Positions 1 to 12,498 of a DNA stretch of 37,848 nt are shown piece by piece. The stretch covers positions 1 through 37,848 of the forward strand of contig DXUR01000002.1 in NCBI GenBank assembly GCA_019417795.1, written 5' to 3'. Position 1 is the stretch's first letter, and every line of letters starts with the position of its first letter. This stretch comes from Clostridiales bacterium. GTDB taxonomy: Bacteria; Bacillota_A; Clostridia; Oscillospirales; Oscillospiraceae. The notes under the pieces are model-generated. The model was not told the origin of the DNA, ran no database searches, and was given only the letters and a program-made list of their open reading frames with translations. The position numbers and the translations under genes are program-made.

Positions 1-94
1 CCATTGAAATAACGGCACTTAACGGTGAGCAATCTGAAAAGATGTTTCTATAACAGAAGCATCCAATCCAGTCCCCACGCCACTTTTAGGCCAC

Positions 95-140
95 AGGTGT
101 AGGAGTAGTCAAGAAATAACCGGCTCTCCTACACCTTTTT
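95..140 (+). terminator. Rho-independent terminator-like hairpin reading rightward
   Basis: An 11-base perfect inverted repeat (95-105 with 126-136) encloses a 20-base loop and runs into five T on the plus strand (136-140). The T-tract is on the plus strand, so it would stop rightward transcription entering from left of the window, converging on the leftward late genes. On the minus strand there is no T-tract after the stem. Bases 1-94 hold no gene that I can see. Confidence 0.6.
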
Positions 141-153
141 CGACCTCTAATCA

Positions 154-456
154 CTACTTATGGATCTGCGCAAGTGCTTCTTTCAGCTTGTCAAATCCGA
201 ACATTGCCGCATAAGCCACCATGAACGCGAGGACCACCGCGGCAAACACCATATACCACACCACAGCGATCTCCTTGATGGAACAATATGCAAAGAAAGC
301 GCCGAGCGTCAGCACCAGCGAAACGATCATCGCCAGAGCATTCGTCGGCAGCTTGTCCCAGGTTACTTTCTTGAGTACCTGTACCACAATGTTCGTCAGC
401 ACCACCAGCACGCCAATGATGCTGATGATGACAGACCAGTTCAGTACACTCTCCAT
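154..456 (-). CDS. Putative holin
   Basis: A 100-residue, very hydrophobic protein with about three membrane segments (roughly residues 7-27, 40-60 and 64-88), a short polar link with KKVTWDKLPTN, and a charged C-terminal tail (FDKLKEALAQIHK). Size, topology and position as the last gene of the late cluster fit a phage holin, which permeabilises the membrane so that endolysin reaches the cell wall. The ATG at 456 follows AGGAGGAAAAGAAT. Two other membrane proteins precede it, so which one makes the lethal hole is inferred. No endolysin is adjacent; the only lytic enzyme in the window is at 20850-21677. Confidence 0.7.
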   Translation of the reverse strand: MESVLNWSVIISIIGVLVVLTNIVVQVLKKVTWDKLPTNALAMIVSLVLTLGAFFAYCSIKEIAVVWYMVFAAVVLAFMVAYAAMFGFDKLKEALAQIHK

Positions 457-471
457 ATTCTTTTCCTCCTG

Positions 472-852
472 TTATCCCACCCCGTCTTCGGGCGGAGTAG
501 AGTTTCCCTTGTCAGGCCATGAGTTGTTCTTGCTCAGGTTTTCAAACAGCGCCTTGAGACCGTAGATCAGCACCACGCCGATGATCTCCTTAAGCGCGAC
601 CTGTGACAAAGCCTCTGCGATCTGCTCCCGTCCGAGCAATGCAAGGATATAGCTGCACCATACCCATGCAAGCCCGTTGAGAATGCAGACCCACACGATA
701 ATTTTCATCGTGGTGACCTTGAACCCTGTTTTGGAAGAAGACGTGGGGTCCTTTTCAGGAACACCCCCATCCCCCTCCAAAATATCAGTGAACGGTTCCG
801 CTTCTTTGCAGGCTTTCATTTGCTCGGAAAGGCCGATGCCCCACCTGCTCAC
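472..852 (-). CDS. Phage membrane protein of the lysis cassette
   Basis: A 126-residue protein with a hydrophilic N-terminus of about 48 residues, one clear membrane segment (about 49-73, WVCILNGLAWVWCSYILALL), a second weaker hydrophobic segment (about 85-103), and a polar Pro/Gly-rich tail. It starts at GTG 852, which overlaps the stop of the previous gene in a GTGA junction, with AAGGAGG ten bases upstream, so the two are translationally coupled. Position between another membrane-anchored protein and the holin suggests a holin partner or antiholin. I do not recognise a named family. Confidence 0.6.
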   Translation of the reverse strand: MSRWGIGLSEQMKACKEAEPFTDILEGDGGVPEKDPTSSSKTGFKVTTMKIIVWVCILNGLAWVWCSYILALLGREQIAEALSQVALKEIIGVVLIYGLKALFENLSKNNSWPDKGNSTPPEDGVG

Positions 853-1304
853 AGCGCCGCCACCTCCTTCTTATCCTCGTCCTGAAGGAAGTCTCGTTTC
901 TTCAGCCGGACCTTATACACCTCTCGAATGTTCTCAATGGCAATTTCCGCTCGGCTGTTTGGATACTCAGGGTTCTTTTCGCAATAATGCTCGTACTTGT
1001 CGATATACCCAAGTACCTCTACGAATTCTTCCTTCGTATGACGGATCGGACGAAGCAGCTCATTGTTAAAGCGGAGTATCGCCGCTCGCCAGTCATCGGC
1101 ACGGCCTTGATCATCCGTTTTGATATGTGAGTCCAGCTTTTTCTCGATCTCGTCGAGGCGCTTTGAAATGTCAGCATTGATCGCCTTGCCAATGGCTTTG
1201 GCGAGTGCTGACCAGGGGTTGATTTTGACGGGGGCGATTTGCACCAGGGTCATAAGGATCAGGAGCAGACCGCCCCCGCCGGCTAAAATCTCTTGAATAG
1301 TCAC
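849..1304 (-). CDS. Membrane-anchored phage protein, lysis cassette
   Basis: A 151-residue protein. The N-terminus holds a single hydrophobic segment (about residues 4-25, with GGGGLLLILMTLVQIAPV). A long charged helical region follows (IGKAINADISKRLDEIEKKLDSH..., coiled-coil-like), then a mixed C-terminus. It starts at GTG 1304; an ATG two bases earlier is followed at once by a stop, and GGAGG lies eight bases before the GTG. The layout of one membrane anchor plus a cytoplasmic helical rod resembles haemolysin XhlA-like or holin-associated proteins, but the match is only to architecture. It is coupled to the next gene. Confidence 0.55.
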   Translation of the reverse strand: MTIQEILAGGGGLLLILMTLVQIAPVKINPWSALAKAIGKAINADISKRLDEIEKKLDSHIKTDDQGRADDWRAAILRFNNELLRPIRHTKEEFVEVLGYIDKYEHYCEKNPEYPNSRAEIAIENIREVYKVRLKKRDFLQDEDKKEVAAL

Positions 1305-1324
1305 ATCTCAATCCTCCGGTGCGA

Positions 1325-1465
1325 TTATTTCGCCTTGAGCATGGCGACGAGCTCCTCATACTCGCTTCCGGTCAGCTTGTTGGCTGCGAAGAAAATATCA
1401 ATCTTCTCCTCAAGGCCGTCGGTCTGACCGCGCTCGATCATGCGCTTCAGAGTGCGATACAGCAT
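1325..1465 (-). CDS. XkdX-like short phage protein
   Basis: A 46-residue ORF beginning MLYRTLKRMIERGQT and ending YEELVAMLKAK, with AAGGAGG upstream of ATG 1465. Length, the opening aromatic/basic segment and the final pattern of a short helix followed by an 'LTGSEYEEL' turn match the XkdX family (first seen in Bacillus PBSX), which lies between tail-fibre genes and holin in many Firmicutes phages. Its function is unknown. The location here, between the tail/DGR block and the lysis genes, is the usual one. Confidence 0.75.
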   Translation of the reverse strand: MLYRTLKRMIERGQTDGLEEKIDIFFAANKLTGSEYEELVAMLKAK

Positions 1466-1487
1466 AGTCGTTTTCCTCCTTTCTCAA

Positions 1488-1865
1488 TTATTCCGAGAGA
1501 CCCAGCTCAAGCAGGGTCAGTCGGTATTCGTGATCCACGCTCATCGCGTCCGTATCCTGGACGATGGAGTCTGTGTTTTTCTGAGCGCGGAACAACGCAT
1601 CGTTACTGCGGTCGACCTCATTGTCCTTACCCTTTGCAAGGTAGGTGTCGTAGTTCTCCCGCACGCTGGCAGCAAGTCCGGGCCAACTCTCGACCTCAAC
1701 GCAGTATTCGTCATACTGGAACCCGTCAAGGCCTTCCTTGTCCTCGGCATCCTTAGCGATCTTGCACGCCTCCACATTCTGGTAGAGACGGACAAGACTT
1801 CGTTTGGTACCGGGGATCTCTTCCACAGTAAAGCTGCCGGGGTTGACCATTCCCTGTACTTTCAT
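1488..1865 (-). CDS. Conserved phage protein of unknown function downstream of the DGR
   Basis: A 125-residue acidic protein (MKVQGMVNPGSFTVEEI...). The ATG at 1865 is preferred because AAAGGAG lies eight bases upstream; the in-frame GTG at 1874 touches that ribosome site. The first part looks like a small beta domain (RSLVRLYQNVEA..., QYDEYCVEVES); the second is helical and polar. It sits where an Avd accessory protein might be sought, but Avd proteins are basic four-helix bundles and this one is acidic, so I do not call it Avd. The position before the XkdX-like gene suggests a tail-fibre accessory protein. Confidence 0.6.
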   Translation of the reverse strand: MKVQGMVNPGSFTVEEIPGTKRSLVRLYQNVEACKIAKDAEDKEGLDGFQYDEYCVEVESWPGLAASVRENYDTYLAKGKDNEVDRSNDALFRAQKNTDSIVQDTDAMSVDHEYRLTLLELGLSE

Positions 1866-1880
1866 GAAAATCACTCCTTT

Positions 1881-3056
1881 TTATGCCGCCTGGTATGGCG
1901 GATATAATGCCTGAAGTCTTCTGCACTCCTTTCGGACGACTTTCTTCAGTGCAAACATCGTCTTGGGCTGATAATACCTGTCCAAAACCTGCTGATGATT
2001 GCATTTGCGAAGCTGTCCGAGCCGTGAGATCAGTCCCGAAGCCCTCTTGAATGAGATGACGCGGTTCCTGTCTCGCCGGTAGTAGTAAAGATGAAGCGAT
2101 TGCTTGAGCCGGAATAGATTATGCTTTCGCAAGATCGTGTAACCGTGTCCGAATCGGTATCCAAGAGCCGATGGTAAGCGCGGGCGGCGGTGCCGTTGCT
2201 TTTTCTTCGGCAAAGCCTGATGTGCTCTCTCGACTTTTGGCGTAAACCCGACGCGGAAGATCTGCCAGTTACCTTTGATCTTCATTCCGATCTCGGCAAG
2301 CCACTTCTTGATATCTTCCAGCAGCTTCCTCAGTTTTCGCTTGTTGGAACCGAAGATCGTGAAGTTGTCCATCTGCCGCAGATAGTGTGATACGCCATAC
2401 TGCTTTTGATGGATCATCAGATCTAAGGGCTGGAGTGTCAAATGGAGAAACCATGCGGAGAAGAATGCGCCAATGAGGACTCCGTATTCCATAATGGCGT
2501 CGCACAGCCAAAGCGTTTCGGTGTCCTTGAACACCCGCTTCAAGGCTTCGATGACATACGGCGGGTCAAGCTCCTCAAAGCAGTGGTAGATGTCGCACTC
2601 GCAGCAATACTTCGTGCCCTCTACATTGTTCTTCATCCACTTTTTCAATGCCTTGACGCCGTAGGAGTTCCCTCGGCCGGGGACGCTTGCGATGCAGTAC
2701 CGGTCCATGCTCCGCATAATGTGCGGGATCATCGGCTGCACAACAGCGTGGTGAACATATTGGTCCGGCCACAGAAGCGGCTCGTTGATGTCTCTCCATT
2801 TGCCCTTGCCGCTGTCCGCGTTGCGGTCCCAGCGCCGTCGCTTGAGGGGAGGGTGCATGTGCTCGTCTCCGTCGACCAGACCTTGGATGAATGCTCGGAG
2901 CTTCTCCACATATTCATCCATATTATTTTCGATCTCAATGACCTTTTTGTTCAGGCTGTGATTGCCGTTTCGCCGATGGCCGGCGTTCACTTCCCGAATT
3001 GCCAGACGAAGGTTTTCGTCTGATATGATCTCTTTGTAAACTCGAACTCGTTTCAT
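1881..3056 (-). CDS. Reverse transcriptase of a diversity-generating retroelement, with noncanonical QMDN active site
   Basis: A 391-residue reverse transcriptase. It would copy the adjacent template-repeat RNA into adenine-mutagenised cDNA that replaces the variable repeat of the target gene. Visible motifs are: a basic N-terminus with PLKRRRW (70-76); PGRGNSYGVKALKKW (126-140, motif before the palm); motif A CECDIYHCF with catalytic D155; LIGAFFSAW (194-202), matching the DGR-type (I/L/V)GxxxSQ motif except A for Q; and motif C RQMDNFTIF (227-235), where YxDD is expected, so the second Asp is Asn231. A strongly basic C-terminal extension (about 275-391) probably binds RNA. The ATG at 3056 follows AAGGAGG by twelve bases. 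The gene is next to template repeat 3256-3393, the classic arrangement. Confidence 0.93.
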   Translation of the reverse strand: MKRVRVYKEIISDENLRLAIREVNAGHRRNGNHSLNKKVIEIENNMDEYVEKLRAFIQGLVDGDEHMHPPLKRRRWDRNADSGKGKWRDINEPLLWPDQYVHHAVVQPMIPHIMRSMDRYCIASVPGRGNSYGVKALKKWMKNNVEGTKYCCECDIYHCFEELDPPYVIEALKRVFKDTETLWLCDAIMEYGVLIGAFFSAWFLHLTLQPLDLMIHQKQYGVSHYLRQMDNFTIFGSNKRKLRKLLEDIKKWLAEIGMKIKGNWQIFRVGFTPKVERAHQALPKKKQRHRRPRLPSALGYRFGHGYTILRKHNLFRLKQSLHLYYYRRDRNRVISFKRASGLISRLGQLRKCNHQQVLDRYYQPKTMFALKKVVRKECRRLQALYPPYQAA

Positions 3057-3255
3057 CAGGGATGTTTTCCTCCTTGTAGCCTCACAACCGTTCCAGCGCC
3101 GCGGGGTGTTCCAAGGCGAGACCCGGCCCGAAGTGTACTAAGCTGTGTCCTGTCGGCTTTTCTTCAGCAAGTGCTGTGCGGTCAACCGTGCGATATAGAA
3201 AGGGTGAGGAACCCCTACTACCAAATGGAGGGTTAGCCTGTGGCTCAGCAAGGAT

Positions 3256-3393
3256 GCGACAGCCGATGTTGTCGTTCGTGTTCGACGCGTTGTTGTAGTT
3301 GATGTAGAACGGACCGTGATTCTGGTTCTGGTTATAGTTACCGCCATGGTACAGGCACGGATATCTACCATTGAAGTTCCAGTTATCCGGGAC
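3256..3393 (-). repeat. DGR template repeat (TR)
   Basis: A 138-base non-coding copy of the 3' end of the gene at 3516-6242. Aligned without gaps to the variable repeat at 3546-3683, 122 positions are identical. All 16 differences are at template adenines (minus strand; T in the plus listing): 11 A-to-G and 5 A-to-T. The TR has 42 adenines, many in AAC codons that would read as Asn (for example NWNFNG and NYNQNQN). Four more downstream bases (3252-3255) may belong, adding one A-to-C. About 200 bases separate it from the reverse transcriptase start, and it is presumably part of the DGR RNA. A 112-codon ORF runs through it but lacks a ribosome site. Confidence 0.95.
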
Positions 3394-3466
3394 CATCGTC
3401 TGCTGCACAGTTGACCCCATGTTAAATTGTTGTTTTTCTTAAAATATCAGTGAAATGCAAGGGGAA

Positions 3467-3510
3467 GGGGCTGCGGCCCCCTCACCCCTGCACCCCTACC
3501 TCTTCAGGGG
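3467..3510 (-). other. Paired GC-rich hairpins between target gene and TR
   Basis: The 95-base gap between the target gene stop and the TR holds two inverted repeats: 3493-3497 with 3506-3510 (CCCCT/AGGGG), and 3467-3471 with 3476-3480 (GGGGC/GCCCC, 4-base loop). On the minus strand they follow the target stop codon and lead into an A/T-rich stretch, not an immediate T-tract. They could attenuate transcription between target gene and DGR RNA, or take part in retrohoming. I cannot tell which. Confidence 0.4.
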
Positions 3511-3515
3511 AACAG

Positions 3516-6242
3516 TCACGCCGCCTTTGGCGGGCGTTCCTGGAGGCGACAGCCGACGTTGACGAACGTGTCCGACGCGCCGTTGTAGCTGATGCAGAAC
3601 GGACCGTGATTCTGGACCTGGCTATAGCTACCGCCATGGTACAGGCACGGATACCTACCATTGAAGCTCCAGTAATCCGGGACATAGGTCGTTTGACTGC
3701 CGTTTGCCGCGCTCGGGAACAGCGCCCATTCAAGACCGCTTGCTGTCGGAATGGTGAAGTCGGACGGATAGCCCGAAGAGGGCGTGCCGACCAGCGTGCC
3801 ATTCGCGCTGTCGCTGAAGTTGTTGGGATTGCTGATGACATTCAGGCCGTTATTGTTGTAATAGCAGCCGTCCATCCAGTCATAAACATTGTCCCACCAG
3901 CCTTCGATGTTGCGATACTGCGTGAAGCCGTAGCTGTCGCGGCTTGCCGCGGTCGTACCGGTGTGATAACCCATCGCGTCGGTCTGGCCGTTGTTCATCT
4001 TGGAACCGCTCGTAGAGCAGCCTCTGCCGATGCGCTCGCCATTCCAATCGGCAAACTCCACAAGGAACAGCATGTTCACATACCAGAACTGAGCGAAATC
4101 CATCTGCCAGAAGTTAGCGCCGAGGTTATGAATACCGCTGCGCGCCTGGCTTCTCGTGATGTTTACCTGCTGTGCGGCGCCCGTGGTGGACTTATAACCG
4201 CTGGCGCAGTGATAACGGCCGATGTAGGAGTAGTCCAGCTCGCCAAGGCCGTCCCCGCGGTCCCTGTTTACAGGGTCAACGGAGAAGCCCTCGACATAAC
4301 CGTCAGCGATCTGGAGCTTCAGCTTCTTGCCGGTCTTCGTCCACTTGAACCAATACTTTGGCTCCTTGACCTCAACGCCGCCGCTGCGGGTCTCCTTCAC
4401 CATACCGGACCACGGCATCAGGTTGTCGAAGGGAGAAGAACCACTGCCGTTGTTCACAGCCGGAGACGGGTCGCCGAAACTTGCCGCCGCGTCCGTGCGA
4501 GTGCCCTTGGTCTGGCCGCTGCTCGTCCAATCCCACTCAACGCCGTAGATCGTGACGAAAGTGGCCGTCACATTGACCGTCGTGTCGGAAGCCGCCTTGT
4601 AGTTTGTCCCCTCGGCGACCTTGACGGTGATCTTGGCCGTGCCGGTCGTGTAGTTCACGCTCTCAACGGTCACAACGCCGGTGCTTTGATTGATGGATTT
4701 GATCTTCGCGACGCTCGTGTTGTTCGAGGTGGCTGTGATCGTACCGTTGCCATTGCGGTTCACCGTAAAGGTTGCGGTCTTGGCACTGCTCTTCAGCACG
4801 ATGGAGCTCGGCGAATTGGTCACGCTGTTCACGGCCTTGTCGATCGTCCACGATGCTGTCTTGCCTCCGGTGCTTCCGTCGGACCACTTGTAGTTGGAAG
4901 TCGGAGTAAAGGTAGCGCTGTAAGTGCCTGCGTTGGTAGCGGCCGTCACGGAAACGGTCATCTTTGCCGAGTCATAGGCGGTATTCCACGAAGGAGTCTT
5001 CGGGTTGCCGTCATAGACAAGCGTGCCGCTCTGGGCGGGGACTGCCGCGATGGTGGCTCTGCCGATGGTCCACTTGATGGTCTTGGCCGCGGTCGTACCG
5101 TCCGTCCACATACCCTTCTTCAAGGTAAAGGTCGCCGTGTACTCGCCGGCATTCGTCTTGGCAGATACGCTCACAGAGGAGTTCTCATTGTCGAAATTCT
5201 GCCACTTCGGCGTCTGAGCGCTGCCGTTGTAGGTCAGCGTACCGCTCTGCGAAGGAATGGAAACGAGCACCGAGATGATCGTCCACTTCACTTCCTTGGC
5301 GCCTGTGCTGCCATCAGACCACTTGTAGTTAGAAGTCGGCGTAAAGGTCGCCGTGTACTCACCGGCAGCCGTACCGGAGGTATCGCCGCCAATGGTCATC
5401 TTGTTGGTGTCATAGCCGTTCCAGCTCGGTGTCTTGCTCGTGCCGTCGGCAACAAGCGTTCCAGTCTGCGTCGGCAGAGCCGAGATGACAGCGCGGTCGA
5501 TCGTCCACTTTACGCGGGCTTCATCCGTGCCGTCCGGGAACAAATAGCCGTAGGACAGCTTGAAGATCGCCGTGTAACTACCTGCGTCAGAGGCGCTCGT
5601 AACGCCGGAGATCTCCATTTTGAGTGGATCGTAGCCGTTCCAGCTCGGTGTCTTATCCGAACCGTTGTAGGTCGGGATGTTCGTCTGCGTCGGAACGGCA
5701 ATGGTCTTGCCCTGCACCGTAACGACAAGGTCTGTGCTCTTCGTCACACCTTCGTAGGTGTATTCAAGCTTCATGACCTGACGCCCCAATGTAGAGAAGT
5801 TCGTCGTCGGATAGGTGTAATCCAGTACCGCCGCCGTGCTCCCGTCCGAGAAGGTCGCGGTCACGACCATGCCCGTCGGATCAAGGCTCTCCTGATACTG
5901 ATAGACCGTCTTGGTCGGCTGCGTAGTGATGGCGATGCTGACAAGCACCTTTTTCACCGTCACGGCAACCGTCGCGGTCTTCGTGATGCGACCCTCGGTG
6001 TAGGTGATGACAACTTTGCTCACCCCGTCCGTAAGAACAGAGGGAGAGACGGTGTAACCCGTCACATTTGCCATCAGACCTTCGCCGTAGTTTGCCACAA
6101 CGACCATGCCGGTGGGGTCGAAAGTTTCACCGGACTTATAGACCGTCTTGTTGGGCGGGGTGGCGATAGTCAGACTTTCCATCTTCGGAGAGCCGCTGCC
6201 ACCGCCGCCGGAAAGGTTGAATACCTTGCCAACATTACTCAT
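3516..6242 (-). CDS. DGR target: Ig-repeat display protein with C-type-lectin-like variable tip
   Basis: A 908-residue protein. A native GGGGSGS linker (12-18) follows the N-terminus. Two Ig-like domains come next (about 21-96 and 99-178, each with a TVY...DPTGMVV motif). Four repeats of about 70 residues follow (179-466; YNG..KTPSW ... GxYTATF ... KWTI), then another Ig-like domain (467-560). The C-terminal 340 residues are Trp/Gly/Asn-rich and resemble the formylglycine-enzyme/C-type-lectin fold used by DGR targets. The variable repeat encodes residues 854-899; compared with TR, the altered residues are 857, 859, 872, 874, 876, 883, 885, 888, 891, 893, 894 and 896. The ATG at 6242 follows GGAGG by nine bases; a longer in-frame start at 6284 lacks one. 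It is probably a receptor-binding tail protein, as it follows the fibre genes. Confidence 0.92.
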   Translation of the reverse strand: MSNVGKVFNLSGGGGSGSPKMESLTIATPPNKTVYKSGETFDPTGMVVVANYGEGLMANVTGYTVSPSVLTDGVSKVVITYTEGRITKTATVAVTVKKVLVSIAITTQPTKTVYQYQESLDPTGMVVTATFSDGSTAAVLDYTYPTTNFSTLGRQVMKLEYTYEGVTKSTDLVVTVQGKTIAVPTQTNIPTYNGSDKTPSWNGYDPLKMEISGVTSASDAGSYTAIFKLSYGYLFPDGTDEARVKWTIDRAVISALPTQTGTLVADGTSKTPSWNGYDTNKMTIGGDTSGTAAGEYTATFTPTSNYKWSDGSTGAKEVKWTIISVLVSIPSQSGTLTYNGSAQTPKWQNFDNENSSVSVSAKTNAGEYTATFTLKKGMWTDGTTAAKTIKWTIGRATIAAVPAQSGTLVYDGNPKTPSWNTAYDSAKMTVSVTAATNAGTYSATFTPTSNYKWSDGSTGGKTASWTIDKAVNSVTNSPSSIVLKSSAKTATFTVNRNGNGTITATSNNTSVAKIKSINQSTGVVTVESVNYTTGTAKITVKVAEGTNYKAASDTTVNVTATFVTIYGVEWDWTSSGQTKGTRTDAAASFGDPSPAVNNGSGSSPFDNLMPWSGMVKETRSGGVEVKEPKYWFKWTKTGKKLKLQIADGYVEGFSVDPVNRDRGDGLGELDYSYIGRYHCASGYKSTTGAAQQVNITRSQARSGIHNLGANFWQMDFAQFWYVNMLFLVEFADWNGERIGRGCSTSGSKMNNGQTDAMGYHTGTTAASRDSYGFTQYRNIEGWWDNVYDWMDGCYYNNNGLNVISNPNNFSDSANGTLVGTPSSGYPSDFTIPTASGLEWALFPSAANGSQTTYVPDYWSFNGRYPCLYHGGSYSQVQNHGPFCISYNGASDTFVNVGCRLQERPPKAA
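3521..3533. other. Short hairpin just beyond the variable repeat (possible homing-site hairpin)
   Basis: CCGCC-TTT-GGCGG is a perfect 5-base inverted repeat with a 3-base loop, covering the last codons of the target gene. It starts 12 bases beyond the 3' end of the variable repeat in coding sense. In the Bordetella phage DGR a GC-rich hairpin just beyond the variable repeat and its IMH segment promotes homing. Position and composition agree, but this stem is shorter. Confidence 0.45.
3546..3683 (-). repeat. DGR variable repeat (VR)
   Basis: The last variable segment of the target gene, paired without gaps to the template at 3256-3393 (offset 290). Thirteen codons differ, twelve changing the amino acid (for example Asn to Tyr, Ser, Val, Gly, Asp or Phe); one Arg change is silent. 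No difference occurs at any of the 96 template positions that are not adenine. The coding-strand 3' end, GGCTGTCGC, is unchanged and GC-rich, as expected for the IMH side. Confidence 0.95.
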
Positions 6243-6621
6243 CTGTTCCGACCTCCAGTCGAATGATAAAGACGGACAAGTCAACGGTCGGCGTCGTATC
6301 GCACCGGAAAGTCATCTGCCCGCTCGTAGTTACATTGTCTGCGCTCACGCCATAACTGTCGTACACATTACGGGTACCGGCGTCTGCGCCTACAAGATAA
6401 ATATAGTTGCTGTCAGCTAAGAGGGAAGCATGTGCAACAGTCTGCGCTCCGCCGCTCCAATTCGCGGCCGGCAGAGTAACAGAGATGCCGATATGCTGGA
6501 GATCCTCCAGTCCGGCGGCAACAAGCTCCGCCAATTCAGCTACCTGCTTGGCGGAATCCTTCTTCCCCGCAAGTGCCAGCTTTTTGAGCTGGTCAAATGT
6601 GGAAAACTTATGCTCTGCCAT
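6235..6621 (-). CDS. Small tail protein: QLKKLAL adaptor plus fibre C-terminal beta-domain
   Basis: A 128-residue protein of two modules. The N-terminal helix (about 6-30, FSTFDQLKKLALAGKK) matches the start of the protein at 6692-7522 (HTTIKQLKKLALRTK). The C-terminal 80 residues match the end of the fibre protein at 8152-9444: LPAANWSGG against LPASGWSNG, TTSGQMTF against STTGFITF, and VFIIRLEV against VNIVRLEL. This looks like a conserved beta-sandwich cap. Its stop overlaps the start of the DGR target gene by 8 bases. Shared parts suggest a baseplate or fibre adaptor linking successive tip proteins; the exact role is inferred. The ATG at 6621 follows a GGAAGG-type site. Confidence 0.7.
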   Translation of the reverse strand: MAEHKFSTFDQLKKLALAGKKDSAKQVAELAELVAAGLEDLQHIGISVTLPAANWSGGAQTVAHASLLADSNYIYLVGADAGTRNVYDSYGVSADNVTTSGQMTFRCDTTPTVDLSVFIIRLEVGTDE

Positions 6622-6651
6622 ATGTTGTTACCTTCCTTTCAAAAGGTGGAA

Positions 6652-6676
6652 CGGGGGACAGAAAGCCCATCCCCCG
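6652..6676 (-). terminator. GC-rich hairpin between tail-tip genes
   Basis: A perfect 7-base inverted repeat, CGGGGGA (6652-6658) with TCCCCCG (6670-6676), sits in the 70-base gap after the gene ending at 6692. On the minus strand it is followed by a mixed TTCCACCTTTT stretch, so it is a weak terminator or an RNA-stabilising hairpin. Confidence 0.4.
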
Positions 6677-6691
6677 CTCGCATATGCTGGA

Positions 6692-7522
6692 TCAGACAGA
6701 AGCCTGAGCGCCGAAGACTTCGGTCAGCATGGCGTCGACTTCCTCGTCGGTAGCCATCACGATGTCCGTCTTCTTGACAAAGGTTTCGTCGACCTGGGTC
6801 TTGGTGTAGTAAGACTCCAGGGCGGTGCTGATCGCGGCAGTCACCTCAGTCGTCTTGGCGTAATCGGCGATGCTCAGAGCATTGATCGCCTCGGTGATGT
6901 AGGCGACAACGGTGGTAGAGGTCGCACCCTCGGGCAACGTGCCGACAAGAGTCTTCAGGTCGGCGATAGCGGTCTTGTTCTCGCTGATGCCGCCGGCCAT
7001 CTTGGTCGCCTCAGGGCCGTGCTTGGCAACCCAGTCGATCAGCTCCTTGTAGCTGTTGACCACATTGTCATCGGTCACATCGGTGGCGAACTTGTTGATA
7101 GCCTTGTCGATCATCTTGCTGATGGAGCCTTCGCCGTCGCCGGTCAGGGTATCCAGGTCAGCCTGCTTCGCCTTGGCGTCGATGATGGCCTTCAGAGCGG
7201 CAGCCAGATCGCTCTCAGCAACCTCGGACTTGTAGGCCAGAGCCGCCAGACCGTGAACGGGAATATCAACGCCGTTGGCGGAGATGGTGCCGTTGGTCTT
7301 GCCCTCAGCAATGAGAATGTCGGCGATCTTATCGGTCAGGGCCAGCAGAGTGCCGTTGACCTTGATGCCTTCCAGCTTGTTAGGCTCGCCGCCGGCAGTC
7401 ACCAGGTCATTGACCTTAGTGGTCAGGCCGGTAACCTTAGCGTCGACAAGGCCGATCTCACTCTTGGTGCGCAGCGCCAGTTTCTTGAGCTGTTTAATAG
7501 TAGTGTGCTTGGTAGTAGACAT
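6692..7522 (-). CDS. Helical tail-tip/adaptor protein with EVDxML C-terminal motif
   Basis: A 276-residue protein starting MSTTKHTTIKQLKKLALRTK. Most of it is predicted helical and polar with repeated Leu/Ala patterns (for example ALAYKSEVAESDLAAALKAI). It ends in ATDEEVDAMLTEVFG, the same motif found twice at the end of the next protein upstream (7551-8150). The ATG at 7522 follows GGGGA; longer starts lie inside the preceding gene. It probably belongs to the tail-tip or side-fibre set. No enzymatic motif is visible. Confidence 0.65.
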   Translation of the reverse strand: MSTTKHTTIKQLKKLALRTKSEIGLVDAKVTGLTTKVNDLVTAGGEPNKLEGIKVNGTLLALTDKIADILIAEGKTNGTISANGVDIPVHGLAALAYKSEVAESDLAAALKAIIDAKAKQADLDTLTGDGEGSISKMIDKAINKFATDVTDDNVVNSYKELIDWVAKHGPEATKMAGGISENKTAIADLKTLVGTLPEGATSTTVVAYITEAINALSIADYAKTTEVTAAISTALESYYTKTQVDETFVKKTDIVMATDEEVDAMLTEVFGAQASV

Positions 7523-7550
7523 ATTGCATGTCCCCATTAAATATATTTGT

Positions 7551-8150
7551 TCACGGCTGTTCGCCGAAAACATCATTGAGTAGGTCATCCACTTCTTTGT
7601 CAGAAGCGGTGTTGTCGGGTGTGCTTCCGCCCGGGTCGCTCGAAGCAAAGGCGTCGTTCAACATATCGTCGACCTCTTTATCCGAGGCCGTTCCTGAAAT
7701 GCTTCTCTGAATCTCAACGATCACCTCGGTCAGCGTCTTGTTGCCAAAACCCGCCGTCGATGGGTCACCGATGATTCCCATGATCTGCTTGTAGGCTTCA
7801 TCGCCCATCGGGTCTCCAGAGCCGCCTGTGCCAACGCTGATATTGGCCGGGAAGAGGATCTTGCTGGTAACATGCCAGCCCGTCGACTTCCGTTCCTCGC
7901 CCTTGACGCCATAAACGGCGATCTTCAGCGGGATACCGCCTTTCTTCAGGCATTCGCCCGGAATGTCACACTTGTCTTCGCTCAGCACAACAGCCATGCT
8001 GACACCGCCTGCCTCAAAGAGCGCAGTCTTTGCGAACCCGTCCCAATCCTTGCTGAAGGCGAATTCGACCGGATAAGGCGTCGCTGCGTTCTGGATCAGT
8101 GTAGTGTCCTCCACCAGCGTGGTGAAGCAGCTTTTGATCGCAATTTTCAA
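7551..8150 (-). CDS. Tail-fibre/baseplate protein with two TASDKEVDD motifs
   Basis: A 199-residue protein, most likely starting at TTG 8150: AAGGAGG lies eight bases upstream, and the in-phase ATG-like site is out of frame. The first 120 residues look like a beta-rich domain (FTTLVEDTTLIQNAATPYP..., VEFAFSKDWDGFAKTALFEA), reminiscent of N-terminal baseplate-attachment domains of Firmicutes phage fibres such as BppU. The C-terminus has two copies of a short acidic motif, TASDKEVDDMLNDAF and TASDKEVDDLLNDVFG, linked by a Gly/Ser/Pro stretch. Only one base separates the start from the stop of the gene before it. Function inferred from context. Confidence 0.65.
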   Translation of the reverse strand: MKIAIKSCFTTLVEDTTLIQNAATPYPVEFAFSKDWDGFAKTALFEAGGVSMAVVLSEDKCDIPGECLKKGGIPLKIAVYGVKGEERKSTGWHVTSKILFPANISVGTGGSGDPMGDEAYKQIMGIIGDPSTAGFGNKTLTEVIVEIQRSISGTASDKEVDDMLNDAFASSDPGGSTPDNTASDKEVDDLLNDVFGEQP

Positions 8151-8151
8151 A

Positions 8152-9444
8152 TCATTCGCCTCCTTCTTCGGCATTGACCGACAGTTCAAGACGCACGATG
8201 TTCACCGTGATGTCTTTAATCGGGTCGGTATCGTTCACAAATGTGATGAAGCCGGTCGTGGAGATGTCTTTCGGACGCACATTGCATTCGAGGTATTCTT
8301 CACGGCTGGCTTCATATGCATCAATGAGGTATTTGTACTTGGCAGCGGCCACAAGGCGGCTCTCCGCCACAGTGATGGAACCGTTCGACCATCCGGAGGC
8401 CGGCAGCACCAGATCGAAATGGATGCCGAGCACATCGCCCGTACCCGTTCCGTTCAGACCGTTGTAGACGGCGATGTTGTACTTGCTTCCGTCTGTCATC
8501 GTAACGGTGTAAATATCAGTCGAGCCGGGCGTATGATTGCCCTGCGTCAACTGAATGCTCTGAATACCGTTGCCGGTCGGGCCGGTCAGCTCGCAACTGA
8601 TGTTGGTGTTCACATAAGTGCCATTCTCAGCGTCCCAGATCCACCAGGTACCGTTCTCCGGCTTAGGCGGCTTGCCGCTGTACTGCTGTGCGGTCGCGGC
8701 GCTCTCTGCGGCAGACTCCTTGTAAGTCTTGGCGTTTGCCTCAGAGTTCTCGGCGGACTCCCGCGCGTTCTCGGCGGCCGTTTTAGCGGTCTGCGCCTTG
8801 TCACGGGCATCCACAGCAGCCGTTTTAGCAGCTTCGGCGTCCGTCTTCGATACAGCAGCGGCATCTTCCGATGCTTTTGCTCCATTTTGACTGTTCACCG
8901 CCGCGTCTCTTGCAGCTTCCGCAGCAGCACGGGCCTCTTCCGCTGCGTTGCGGTCAGCAGTAGCCTGTGCGCCCAGTGTCTCAGCCTCTGAGCGAATAGT
9001 TCTCACGCGCTCCTCGGCGGCCTTGACCTCTCCCTCTGCAAGCGTTGCCGCTGTCTTGGCGTCCGTGGCCTCCTGTGCCTTCTGCTTGGCAATCTCTTCC
9101 GAATTCTTCGCCTCTGTCTCAGATGCCTTAGCACCAGCGGCAGCTTCTTTTGCGTCCGCGGCCTGCTTGTTGACATTTTCCTCAGAGGTCTTGATGCTTC
9201 CCTCGGAGAGTGCAGCCGCGGCAGCGGATTCGGAGGCGCTTGTCGCCTTTTTGTCGGCATCTTCGGCGGACTTCTTGGCAGCCGCGGCATTTGCCTGTGC
9301 GGAATCCTTTGCTGTGGAGGCAAACTCCATCGCGCTGCTGGACTCCGTGTTCATCGCCGCCAGAGCATCATGGATGGAGCCGCGAACCTCTTCGCCATAA
9401 ATGGCGCTGAGGATTTTTTTCAGAAAGCTGCTGATATCAGCCAT
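8152..9444 (-). CDS. Ala-rich coiled-coil tail fibre
   Basis: A 430-residue fibre. After a conserved N-terminus (MADISSFLKKILSAIYGEEVRGSIHDAL, about 1-30) comes a stalk of some 215 residues built from Ala/Glu/Lys/Asp with regular spacing (AKxAAEEA, AKTAAENARESAENSEANAK), typical of a long trimeric coiled coil. Then come PENGTWWIWDAENGTYV (about 260-280), a collagen-like TGPTGNG, and a C-terminal beta-domain (about 345-425) shared with the protein at 6235-6621. It probably projects from the baseplate. The ATG at 9444 follows GGAAGGAGTGATTTAG. Confidence 0.78.
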   Translation of the reverse strand: MADISSFLKKILSAIYGEEVRGSIHDALAAMNTESSSAMEFASTAKDSAQANAAAAKKSAEDADKKATSASESAAAAALSEGSIKTSEENVNKQAADAKEAAAGAKASETEAKNSEEIAKQKAQEATDAKTAATLAEGEVKAAEERVRTIRSEAETLGAQATADRNAAEEARAAAEAARDAAVNSQNGAKASEDAAAVSKTDAEAAKTAAVDARDKAQTAKTAAENARESAENSEANAKTYKESAAESAATAQQYSGKPPKPENGTWWIWDAENGTYVNTNISCELTGPTGNGIQSIQLTQGNHTPGSTDIYTVTMTDGSKYNIAVYNGLNGTGTGDVLGIHFDLVLPASGWSNGSITVAESRLVAAAKYKYLIDAYEASREEYLECNVRPKDISTTGFITFVNDTDPIKDITVNIVRLELSVNAEEGGE

Positions 9445-9460
9445 CTAAATCACTCCTTCC

Positions 9461-9841
9461 TTAGTCCTCCAGCATCCAGTCAAGCAGCAGGATCTCCTCG
9501 CCGCTCAGACAGCCGATCGTATCTTCATACTTGGCAGTCATCAGCTCTACCTCATGCTCCATCTCATTGAACGGAGCAAGCTCGTCGCAGAAGGCCTTAA
9601 AATTAGGAGAGCCCACCTTGATGGAAATGGTTCCGGTCTCGTTGCCACTTTCATCCTTGTCAGGCTCTCCGTATTTGTTGATAAGGTCGTGTTTGAATGC
9701 TTCATACTCGGTCAAAGTAGTAGAAAGCATCCGGAAGTTCCTCGCGGCGATATAGCCGATCTTGTTGCGGAGCTGAAGAAGCGGCCGCAGGTTCTGGACC
9801 ATCACGACCATTTCTGAATTTTTAAGCTGTTTCTTCAACAT
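9461..9841 (-). CDS. DUF1617-like phage protein
   Basis: A 126-residue helical protein (MLKKQLKNSEMVVMVQNLRPLLQLRNKIGYIAARN...). Overall length, the N-terminal helix with repeated charged/hydrophobic pattern and the midway acidic GEPDKDESGNETG segment resemble DUF1617 proteins encoded next to tail-tip genes in Firmicutes phages. The start overlaps the stop of the upstream tail gene in a TAATG junction, so it is translationally coupled. Function unknown; family assignment is by general resemblance. Confidence 0.6.
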   Translation of the reverse strand: MLKKQLKNSEMVVMVQNLRPLLQLRNKIGYIAARNFRMLSTTLTEYEAFKHDLINKYGEPDKDESGNETGTISIKVGSPNFKAFCDELAPFNEMEHEVELMTAKYEDTIGCLSGEEILLLDWMLED

Positions 9842-12498
9842 TATCCCTCCTTTTGCTGAAGCAGTTCTTCGACCATTTGATAGAGTTTCTGGATCATGTG
9901 CGTATTGAGCGCAATAAGTTCGCCGTATCGGATGCTGTAACGGTAGTCCGTGAGACCATCTTCCAAAATCTCCAACACGGGGTCTTTAACGAGTGCGGCA
10001 AGTTGACTGGAGGTCAATCCAACATCGAGCATAGCCTGTTCCACATCTTGGGCGATAAATCCAAAATGAGTTCGCCCTGAGGTGCCTTTGTTGTACTTGA
10101 AAGTAGATGGCTTCAACGCCAGGAAAAACGCCTCGTAGGCTGAAAGGTCATAGTCGATCGTGTTCTTGATTCTAAGATCGGAACGAATAGTTGGCTCCTC
10201 ACTCATTGTGATGCCACCAGAAACGACAATATCTGCGCCGATTCCGGACATACGGGCTCCGGCATTGGTCACGATGATATAAGGATCATAGCCGGGGCCA
10301 TTGGAACCATACATCATAGAACCGTAAGTTGTATGCACACCGTCGGAACCGTGGCCCTTGCAGAATCCACCATAACCGCATGATAGGTCGATATAGTCAG
10401 CGTCGATCGTACCGGAGCGAATATAATTTGCATTGATATAGAGCCGGCCAGTCGTCGAATCACTGAAAATACCGAACTTCGTACCACCAGAGGTGAGCAC
10501 ATCAAACACATTCTGGTCAGTACACCGATCCTGATAGGCCCTGTTTGCTCTCGACCATGCGGCAGAAGCCTCATCATAAGCGTCGTTTGCGGTACTCTGC
10601 GCAGCGGAAGCGTTCGCATTCGCCGTGCTTGCCAGCGAGTAGGCGGGGTTGGAGGTGAGGTTCTGGTTCGTCACGGATGCCCAGTTGATCGTGCTTCCGG
10701 CGGACAGCGTCACCTTACCGTCTATGGTAACGGAGCCGCTGGAATCAACAGCAAATGTCGTGCGGACACCGTTGGTAACGGTAAGTCCGTAGACGCTCAG
10801 GTATTTGGACTTGAATCGCTCGTCGTCCATCATGCTGTTGCCCGCTCGGTCAAGGAAGTCAGAGGCCTGAACCACGCCCTTAAAGTTTCCGTCCACACCG
10901 ACCAGCGTACCGCTGAAGGTTCCTTTCGCCGCAGCCAGAGTACCCGCAAAGGTGCCTCGGCGTGCGGTCAGGTTGCCTTCCTCGTCAACGGTGAAGTTTC
11001 CGTCTCCAATGTTGATGGAGCCTTTCTTCATCGTCAGCTTGCCGCTCTCGAAGTCAAGCGAGAAGTTTCCGCCGTAATCTTTCAGCGTACCGGCGCGGAT
11101 CACATCGGCATTGAGAACGCCGGTCGTGATATAGTCTGCCACAATAGAACCATCCATTGTGATGGCAAGCCCAAAGGTCTTTCCATAATCCTTGGAGTAG
11201 CCAAGACCGTTCATGTTCCATTTCCAGAGCTTGTCGGCTTTGGTATAGTCGCGGATATTGGAAATATAAAGCGTGTCAGAACCATATTCGTCCCGTGTGA
11301 TCGTGATGTAGCCGGTCGTGGCCGCTGTCATGATCTGTGTGGCGTTTTCTTTTGCCTCTTTCAGGATGTTGTGCGCCTTGGGGAGACCCTCGATTTTCTC
11401 AAGGATAGCGGCGCTGATCTGGTTGTTCACACTGGTAAGGCTTGTATGCACCGTGTCGCCAAGCGTAAACTTGGTATTCTCCGGGCTGTCCAAAGGGATC
11501 TCCAGCTTCGTGACAGGAAATACACGGTCGAGGCCATGCGGCAGCGAGATCACGCGGATCTCGTCCAGCAGCTTCACTGCCTCCACATTCGCGTTGAGAT
11601 AATGGAGGTCAAGAGCACTGACTTCCAGTTCCATATTGTCGAACTGTAAGTCGGCAAGATATGCCTTCGCCTTTTCCAGCAGCGCTTCAGGATCAGAAAC
11701 GCTGTCCCATGTCACTGTTTTCTCGATCCAGCCATATGTTTTCACAGCCTCGGAGGACTGGACATAAAGGCTGCCCTCATTCACGCTCTCAACGGTCAGA
11801 TAGGCGTCCAGCGCCTCGATCTCGCTCTTGTCAAGCCTGTTGCCAAGCGGAACGATGACCGTTGCAAACTCCGTCATATCCCATCCCTTGGTGTGTTCGA
11901 TGAGGTTGGAGCCGAACTGGATCGTCTGGCTGCAAGTGTCGGGGTAATCTGCCAAATAGTCAAGATAGCGGATGCCGTCTTCTTTGCGTACTCGCAGATG
12001 ACCGCCGTACTGTGCCACCAACGCATTCAAGATCGTGATGGTCTTTTCATAGTTGGTGTAATAAGTCGGAAAATCTTCATCCACCACCGTAACAATGCCG
12101 ATAGTGAACTTCCGGTTGTTTCCGACCTTTGCATTGTGAATGGCGATCATCGCCTCAAGGTACTCACGGATCGTCCCTCCGACGTACTCCGCAGGCGGCT
12201 GTATGCTGTCGTTGAAGAATGCAAGCTCACCCTCGCAAGTAAGCACCCGGTTTAGGTAAAAGTCCTCGTTTTCAGAGAGGACGCGCCCCGCCCAGATCTC
12301 TTTTCCGTCCTTGTGGACGGCAATGTCGGTCACCATACGGATGATGGTGCTATATCCGAGATTGGAGGGCGGAACCGTCATCACGAAGGAACCGGCCGCA
12401 TTGTCTTCCAGCGTCAGCTTGGGGCTTGCAAGCTTCATGTTGTCCAACGCGAAGGCATCATTGTAGATGCAGACGCCATCGGCATAAACAGAATACAT
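9841..12498 (-). CDS. Tail-associated protein (Tal-like) with C-terminal S74 chaperone domain
   Basis: An 885-residue structural protein. The first 350 residues (MYSVYADGVCIYND...) resemble the tail-hub/prophage tail endopeptidase family that closes the tail tip after the distal tail protein. The middle holds short Gly-rich beta-repeats (FTVDEEGNLTARRGTFAGTLAAAKG-type) typical of elongated fibres. The last 113 residues are an intramolecular chaperone of endosialidase type (peptidase S74): SDLRIKN with S773 and K778 spaced five apart, then FGFIAQDVEQAM. In the family this domain trimerises the fibre and cuts itself off just before the Ser. It lies directly downstream of the distal tail gene; ATG 12498 follows GGGAGG. 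Confidence 0.85.
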   Translation of the reverse strand: MYSVYADGVCIYNDAFALDNMKLASPKLTLEDNAAGSFVMTVPPSNLGYSTIIRMVTDIAVHKDGKEIWAGRVLSENEDFYLNRVLTCEGELAFFNDSIQPPAEYVGGTIREYLEAMIAIHNAKVGNNRKFTIGIVTVVDEDFPTYYTNYEKTITILNALVAQYGGHLRVRKEDGIRYLDYLADYPDTCSQTIQFGSNLIEHTKGWDMTEFATVIVPLGNRLDKSEIEALDAYLTVESVNEGSLYVQSSEAVKTYGWIEKTVTWDSVSDPEALLEKAKAYLADLQFDNMELEVSALDLHYLNANVEAVKLLDEIRVISLPHGLDRVFPVTKLEIPLDSPENTKFTLGDTVHTSLTSVNNQISAAILEKIEGLPKAHNILKEAKENATQIMTAATTGYITITRDEYGSDTLYISNIRDYTKADKLWKWNMNGLGYSKDYGKTFGLAITMDGSIVADYITTGVLNADVIRAGTLKDYGGNFSLDFESGKLTMKKGSINIGDGNFTVDEEGNLTARRGTFAGTLAAAKGTFSGTLVGVDGNFKGVVQASDFLDRAGNSMMDDERFKSKYLSVYGLTVTNGVRTTFAVDSSGSVTIDGKVTLSAGSTINWASVTNQNLTSNPAYSLASTANANASAAQSTANDAYDEASAAWSRANRAYQDRCTDQNVFDVLTSGGTKFGIFSDSTTGRLYINANYIRSGTIDADYIDLSCGYGGFCKGHGSDGVHTTYGSMMYGSNGPGYDPYIIVTNAGARMSGIGADIVVSGGITMSEEPTIRSDLRIKNTIDYDLSAYEAFFLALKPSTFKYNKGTSGRTHFGFIAQDVEQAMLDVGLTSSQLAALVKDPVLEILEDGLTDYRYSIRYGELIALNTHMIQKLYQMVEELLQQKEG

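Follow-up and report, generated by a model that had tools for sequence, protein, structure and literature searches.

A diversity-generating retroelement with a YxDN reverse transcriptase, from a clade in which template adenine is hardly ever replaced by cytosine

Introduction

How the reverse transcriptases (RTs) of diversity-generating retroelements (DGRs) err only at template adenines is an unsettled question. A DGR on a Clostridiales contig raises it anew: can an RT with an altered catalytic box keep its adenine specificity, and which bases does it then insert? The stretch analysed here, called the window, comprises 37,848 nucleotides (nt), positions 1 to 37,848 of contig DXUR01000002.1 (assembly GCA_019417795.1), in which a template repeat (TR) and an RT gene follow a gene with a variable repeat (VR) near its 3' end. 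We are highly confident that this is a phage or prophage DGR of a Clostridia host, which would diversify the lectin-like domain at the C terminus of a tail protein, and that its RT belongs to a YxDN clade in whose elements A is hardly ever replaced by C; the Clostridia host is suggested by the relatives of the element, and the phage probably infects gut bacteria. As a DGR it is ordinary. Of specialist interest are a catalytic box that is altered without loss of adenine specificity and the scarcity of A-to-C changes (A>C) across the clade, and the window's clade supplies natural variants with which to approach the question.

Results

Template and variable repeats differ at adenines

An ungapped alignment of the TR and VR spans 138 nt, and all 16 mismatches in it fall on the 42 TR adenines (hypergeometric P = 5.0e-10). 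Eleven are A>G, five A>T and none A>C. They hit 13 codons, one of them synonymously (AGA to AGG), leaving 12 changed residues. The initial annotation, made from the sequence alone, had given the same alignment, substitution types and residue count, all of which we recomputed exactly, and its rough chance estimate of 0.3 to the 16th power comes near the order of our P value.

Beyond this core the repeat runs on for 4 nt (to 3252 and 3542), with one A/C difference. At this site every aligned VR of the close relatives has C and most TRs have A, those of L010, L053 and L065 having C or T. Because the VRs of all aligned relatives carry C there, the site is most readily explained as differing in a fixed way at the repeat boundary and not as mutagenesis. 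Similarity is gone within the next bases on both flanks, and a direct-repeat listing of window positions 1-8000 contained no second repeat of comparable length and identity. With regard to a putative initiation-of-mutagenic-homing site at the VR end, the two repeats share a GC-rich 3' end, and a 5-bp hairpin lies directly 3' of the VR in L001 and L009, hairpins having been counted without a shuffle control.

Variable repeats of relatives diverge while templates stay constant

The nearest genome, G001, contains a similar prophage stretch with 97.7% identity over 8962 aligned columns; its element (L082) has an RT 99% identical to that of the window and an identical TR. Over 8956 window positions the two genomes differ at 203: at none of the 138 TR positions, at 16 of the 138 VR positions and at 187 of 8818 (2.1%) elsewhere. 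All 16 differing VR sites lie at template adenines. The VR of G001 (L082:869-1009) also has one extra codon relative to its TR, a 3-nt insertion beside an AAC-AAC tract, which fits three-base slippage in copying; PMC12875486 (in the part considered here) mentions indels in AAC repeats and attributes them to slippage by multiples of three. Owing to the insertion this VR stands outside the ungapped counts of the next paragraph, and its ungapped part was used in the later comparisons.

The 14 close elements with ungapped pairs, of which the window is one, have 253 TR/VR differences in total: 246 fall on template A (175 A>G, 70 A>T and 1 A>C) and seven on template C. The 138-nt TR is identical in five elements (L005, L006, L007, L008 and L066), each of which has a different VR; pairwise, these VRs differ at 15-28 sites, all but 0-2 of them at template A. 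A near-identity search of a phage collection with window positions 1-12000 gave no match. The RT is under purifying selection, with nonsynonymous (dN) and synonymous (dS) divergence from L082 of 0.0044 and 0.053, respectively; dS exceeded 1.5 for the four other relatives tried.

As judged from these alignments, the DGR shows recent diversification in which the TR is conserved while the VR changes. The initial annotation had expected VRs of relatives to differ only at adenines of an invariant TR, and had named non-adenine substitutions, or a VR identical in all relatives, as findings that would count against it. The VRs do differ almost only at adenines, substitutions elsewhere number 0 of 16 in the window and 7 of 253 in the close set, and neither G001 nor any of the five elements with a common TR repeats the VR of another. 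Its claim of past adenine-specific mutagenic homing is thereby supported. The present activity that it thought probable has support from the recent VR divergence and the purifying selection on the RT, and because of these the element is presumably still active, although this is deduced and not observed.

The RT belongs to a DGR clade with an altered catalytic box

The RT belongs to the DGR lineage: it matches the RT family phrog_1423, the BPP-1 DGR RT (8ub7) is both its sole PDB sequence match and its top fold match, and it clusters among RTs that have TR/VR pairs. Its catalytic box reads QMDN in place of YxDD, and its motif 4 ends in SA in place of SQ. In the DiGReF set of 155 DGR elements, both aspartates are 100% conserved and the SQ motif is present in 90% (PMC3521204, in part). 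Among the best 120 of 611 homologues of the window's RT, 95 read QMDN, nine YMDN and none DD, the remaining 16 being gapped or odd at the site.

We then aligned 311 RTs from 331 loci. These loci were drawn with chosen queries and several contigs occur twice under different identifiers (for example, L290-L296 repeat contigs of L001-L008), so that the 311 RTs, the 87 loci of the window's clade and the 202 loci with a TR/VR pair include repeats. The box reads xxDD in 198 and xxDN in 113 (YMDN 72, QMDN 22, HMDN 5, YVDN 4, YIDN 4, LVDN 2, NMDN 2, YLDN 1 and FVDN 1). In a tree of 88 RTs with both motifs masked, the DN rows fall into three groups, each with a Shimodaira-Hasegawa-like approximate likelihood ratio (SH-aLRT) support of 100, while some deeper branches are weak. 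The Asp/Asn trait changed at least three times on this tree, on which gains and losses are indistinguishable. In the sequences compared, YxDN (QMDN in the window) is a mark of the window's whole clade. Since the VRs of this clade are adenine-mutated, its YxDN RTs very likely retain catalytic competence. One sequence cluster 98% identical to the window's RT (P0002) has 4607 members, so the RT lineage is common in sampled data. In open-licence literature, none of the listed matches linked YMDN, YxDN, YADN or YVDN to DGRs, the one match, to YVDN, being unrelated.

A>C changes are scarce throughout the window's clade

One set of criteria served to find TR/VR pairs in all clades: a minimum of 5 changes at A, 85% or more of the mismatches at A, and no more than 2 kb between TR and RT. 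Since the finder demands adenine bias, pooled adenine bias is no evidence by itself. The finder often captures only part of the repeat; in the window it took in 88 nt, with 7 of the 16 changes. It returned no pair at 109 of the 311 aligned RT loci, and 24 of the 202 pairs found were removed as having the same VR, leaving 178 non-redundant pairs.

In the window's clade, A>C accounts for 18 of 634 adenine substitutions (2.8%, 55 elements), and in the window's own QMDN group for 1 of 123 (12 elements). The share is 5/78 (6.4%, 7 elements) in the second YxDN clade, 32/110 (29%, 10 elements) in the third, whose motif 4 reads KGxxxSP, and 249/1237 (20.1%) in all 106 YxDD elements. One YxDD group, "DD_L104like", is the remainder of the YxDD loci and not a single clade. 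When elements were thinned to RTs less than 55% identical, 3/132 (10 elements) in the window's clade stood against 54/252 (22 elements) in YxDD (P = 2e-4). The window's clade also lies far under its YVDD sister group, which has 31/97 and AT-rich loci (GC 0.34); the P value of 3e-8 treats as units elements that are not independent. The third YxDN clade includes L094, L095, L096 and their relatives, a DGR lineage whose TR/VR differences are confined to adenine and in which A>C is plentiful.

The near-absence of A>C means that the RTs hardly ever insert dG across from template A; in practice, an AAC codon is then sampled into 9 amino acids and not 15. Published spectra vary. For the BPP-1 bRT in E. 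coli, G made up 26.4% of misincorporations opposite A, and more if C follows A, a context by which the authors consider the figure inflated; the same paper quotes 22.5% from an earlier in vitro study (PMC12875486). C is the rarest outcome in the DiGReF set (PMC3521204), and the introduction of PMC8144416 gives roughly equal misincorporation of dATP, dGTP and dCTP. In the sections of the DGR error-spectrum literature considered here, we found no description of a clade-wide near-loss of A>C.

Locus layout and target protein

On the minus strand, the target gene with the VR near its 3' end is followed by the TR, the RT-18 RNA and the RT gene (Table 1). The TR is upstream of the RT in all 202 loci with a pair. 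The VR falls inside the final 55 of the 922 target residues, and the best fold match of the modelled variable domain (predicted local distance difference test score, pLDDT, 92.9) is the DGR variable protein TaqVP (5vf4; Foldseek E value 2e-8). Weaker matches, with E above 0.001, are to Mtd and formylglycine-generating enzymes (C-type-lectin fold). By its phrog_5302 match and this model, the target is a tail protein with a C-type-lectin-like variable domain.

Table 1. Positions of the DGR components in the window
Feature	Position	Strand	Details
RT gene	1881..3056	minus	DGR-type reverse transcriptase; phrog_1423; PDB 8ub7
RT catalytic box	2364..2375	minus	QMDN (residues 228-231), replacing YxDD
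RT motif 4	2454..2474	minus	IGAFFSA (residues 195-201), replacing (I/V/L)GxxxSQ
RT-18 RNA (Rfam RF03021)	3070..3176	minus	TR-RT spacer; 66.9 bits against a gathering score of 41.3
TR (template repeat)	3256-3393	minus	138 nt, 42 adenines; same sequence in nearest relative
VR (variable repeat)	3546-3683	minus	Near target gene 3' end; 16 substitutions, all at TR adenines
Target protein	3516..6284	minus	922 residues; Big_3 Ig-like domain matches; phrog_5302 tail protein; C-terminal variable domain
C-terminal variable domain of target	3516..4400	minus	Predicted fold, Foldseek

Two open reading frames (ORFs) were considered and rejected. The first, of 112 residues (3082-3420), runs through the TR and spacer; among 16 close elements only the window and L082 have an in-frame ATG ahead of the TR, and the distance to the stop varies (103, 92, 61 or 51 codons, or none in 200). 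The second, of 128 residues (1488-1874), lies behind the RT and was rejected as Avd, having no bAvd match and relatives in only 20 of the 87 clade loci. Elsewhere in the locus set, L260 and L264 lie on a single viral contig of 75.6 kb (IMGVR_UViG_3300028832_000128), which carries two DGR-type RT genes.

Spacer RNA and Avd

An RT-18 RNA is found beside the RT in 34 of 34 further loci (20/20 and 14/14), mostly of the window's clade with a few neighbour groups and some near-duplicates. In mixed loci it is found in 6 of 20, and BPP-1 and two BPP-1-like loci carry the Phage_DGR RNA (RF03022) at that position. RT-17 overlaps RT-18 in L314 and L265, and RT-2 is located just upstream of the L104 RT. 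We infer that RT-18 is the DGR spacer RNA of the window's clade. Covariation in the spacers of eight close relatives is weak (RNAalifold; 3 of 45 pairs changed on both sides), and the Rfam match is the stronger evidence. No paper containing "RT-18 RNA" or "RF03021" was found in open-licence literature; what was found only as an Rfam name is now tied to a likely job.

In the window's clade, the bAvd profile (PF22296) had no match in 16 records or genomes, as against matches in 11 of 12 YxDD records (5 of the 11 over the cut-off), although viral records may be fragments. None of 10 window proteins match it either, a result with which a divergent Avd would be compatible. The 23 records of other groups around the window's clade likewise gave no match, in a scan where nothing matched. 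If real, the absence of Avd is probably older than YxDN, because it extends to the groups around the clade and is therefore wider than the YxDN trait.

Discussion

The scarcity of A>C most likely stems from the polymerase of this clade itself, with a possible contribution from the DN box. Several observations weigh against this reading or against the wider account of the locus. The A>C counts were made on VRs already filtered by selection and not on unselected complementary DNA (cDNA). In the A-before-C context, the nearest YxDD (YVDD) sister group is also low, with 1/20. The drop in the second YxDN clade relative to its YxDD sister (5/78 vs 4/24) is not significant (P 0.21 and 0.35). YxDN alone is not supported as a sufficient cause, given the sister-group sampling and the 32/110 of the third YxDN clade. 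Against G001, the VR is not the sole fast stretch, as the 138 nt from 1302 (about 1302-1439) have 14 differences. Finally, transcription, cDNA synthesis and homing are deduced from sequence and not observed.

A more specific proposal, which we regard as tentative and rather doubtful, is that the change of the second aspartate to asparagine, together with the clade's partners (RT-18 RNA, no Avd), retunes the polymerase so that no dG is placed opposite template A. Mutagenesis would then use three letters (A, G and T), and an AAC codon could give 9 amino acids in place of 15. If true, these RTs would form a naturally occurring polymerase family whose metal-binding triad is altered and whose error spectrum is programmed.

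Instead of the polymerase, selection on the target protein or the nucleotide pools of the host might lower A>C, given that VRs are selected and that the compared clades reside on partly different phages and hosts. However, among elements with homologous targets only, the window's clade has 17/608 A>C (52 elements), whereas seven YxDD elements still have 13/73, L280 alone having 0/14. Within genomes of one bacterial family, A>C makes up 14/69 in seven YxDD elements (7 of the 14 from L111) as opposed to 3/81 in eight elements of the two low-A>C YxDN clades, a comparison that left out L094-L096 of the third (13/39). The GC content of the loci is also about equal, at 0.53 in the window's clade and 0.55 and 0.56 in the two large YxDD groups. 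We therefore consider this explanation unlikely.

A once-active and now dead DGR, in which the second catalytic aspartate and the SQ motif have been lost and the VR diversity is old, is far less probable still. It would agree with the deviation of QMDN and SA from motifs conserved in DGR RTs (PMC3521204), and with the human immunodeficiency virus 1 (HIV-1) RT, in which changing both YMDD aspartates to asparagine abolishes polymerase activity (PMC5498913, in part); but both aspartates were changed at once in that case, and here only the second. We reject it on the 16 VR differences from G001, a relative with an identical TR and a 99% identical RT, and on the purifying selection on the RT. The 113 xxDN boxes among 311 aligned RTs, from chosen queries with some repeats, argue the same way, as do adenine-biased pairs in all three DN clades (55, 7 and 10 non-redundant), adenine bias being demanded by the finder. 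Drift by ordinary substitution after duplication of a gene end, which the arrangement of the TR and VR as direct repeats 290 nt apart might suggest, has a negligible chance of being correct and is rejected on the adenine confinement in the window (P = 5e-10) and in relatives with identical TRs.

In an active, adenine-specific DGR, the TR would be transcribed together with the structured RT-18 RNA located 3' of it, and cDNA synthesis would be primed. The TR/VR patterns show that the RT, in copying the TR RNA, misincorporates almost only opposite adenine. By analogy with BPP-1 homing, the cDNA would then replace the VR and leave the TR unchanged, TR invariance being the part seen in relatives, where the RT and the target are conserved as well. 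The variable tail domain would presumably bind the host surface. Adenine-biased TR/VR pairs occur in every group, and across the three YxDN clades A>C is nearly lost, lower (not significantly) or unreduced. Since A>C varies while the adenine bias stays, adenine specificity is separable from the choice of the wrong base, and both can be tested with native enzymes.

Comparison with known systems

By its sequence, the window DGR departs from the canonical type of Bordetella phage BPP-1 (bRT, Avd, mtd; PDB 8ub7; RF03022) in having no YxDD box, no SQ in motif 4 and no Avd found. In both elements the target with VR, the TR and the RT follow one another along a single strand, the spacer holds an RNA at an equivalent position, mutagenesis is directed at adenine, and the RT has the same fold. 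They differ in the catalytic motifs (QMDN and SA vs YMDD and SQ), in the detected Avd, in the spacer RNA (RT-18 vs Phage_DGR) and in the near-absence of A>C from the window's clade.

Phage DGR clades 1, 4 and 6 of Roux et al. 2021 (PMC8144416) resemble the window in being phage-encoded, in gut hosts including Firmicutes, in C-type-lectin (C-Lec) structural targets and in adenine bias. Unlike our results, that paper states roughly equal misincorporation; its main text lacks the words catalytic, YxDD, active site and motif. The Faecalibacterium prophage DGRs (PMC11792537) are likewise found in Clostridia prophages and show adenine-biased VR variation among cognate genomes, whereas the parts of that study considered here do not treat the RT active site, Avd or spacer RNA. 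As for the Rfam RT-18 RNA, the family matches the window well above its gathering score and adjoins the RT gene there, as its other members in the window's clade do; unlike the Rfam entry, these are tied to TR/VR pairs, so that the RNA can be read as a DGR spacer RNA.
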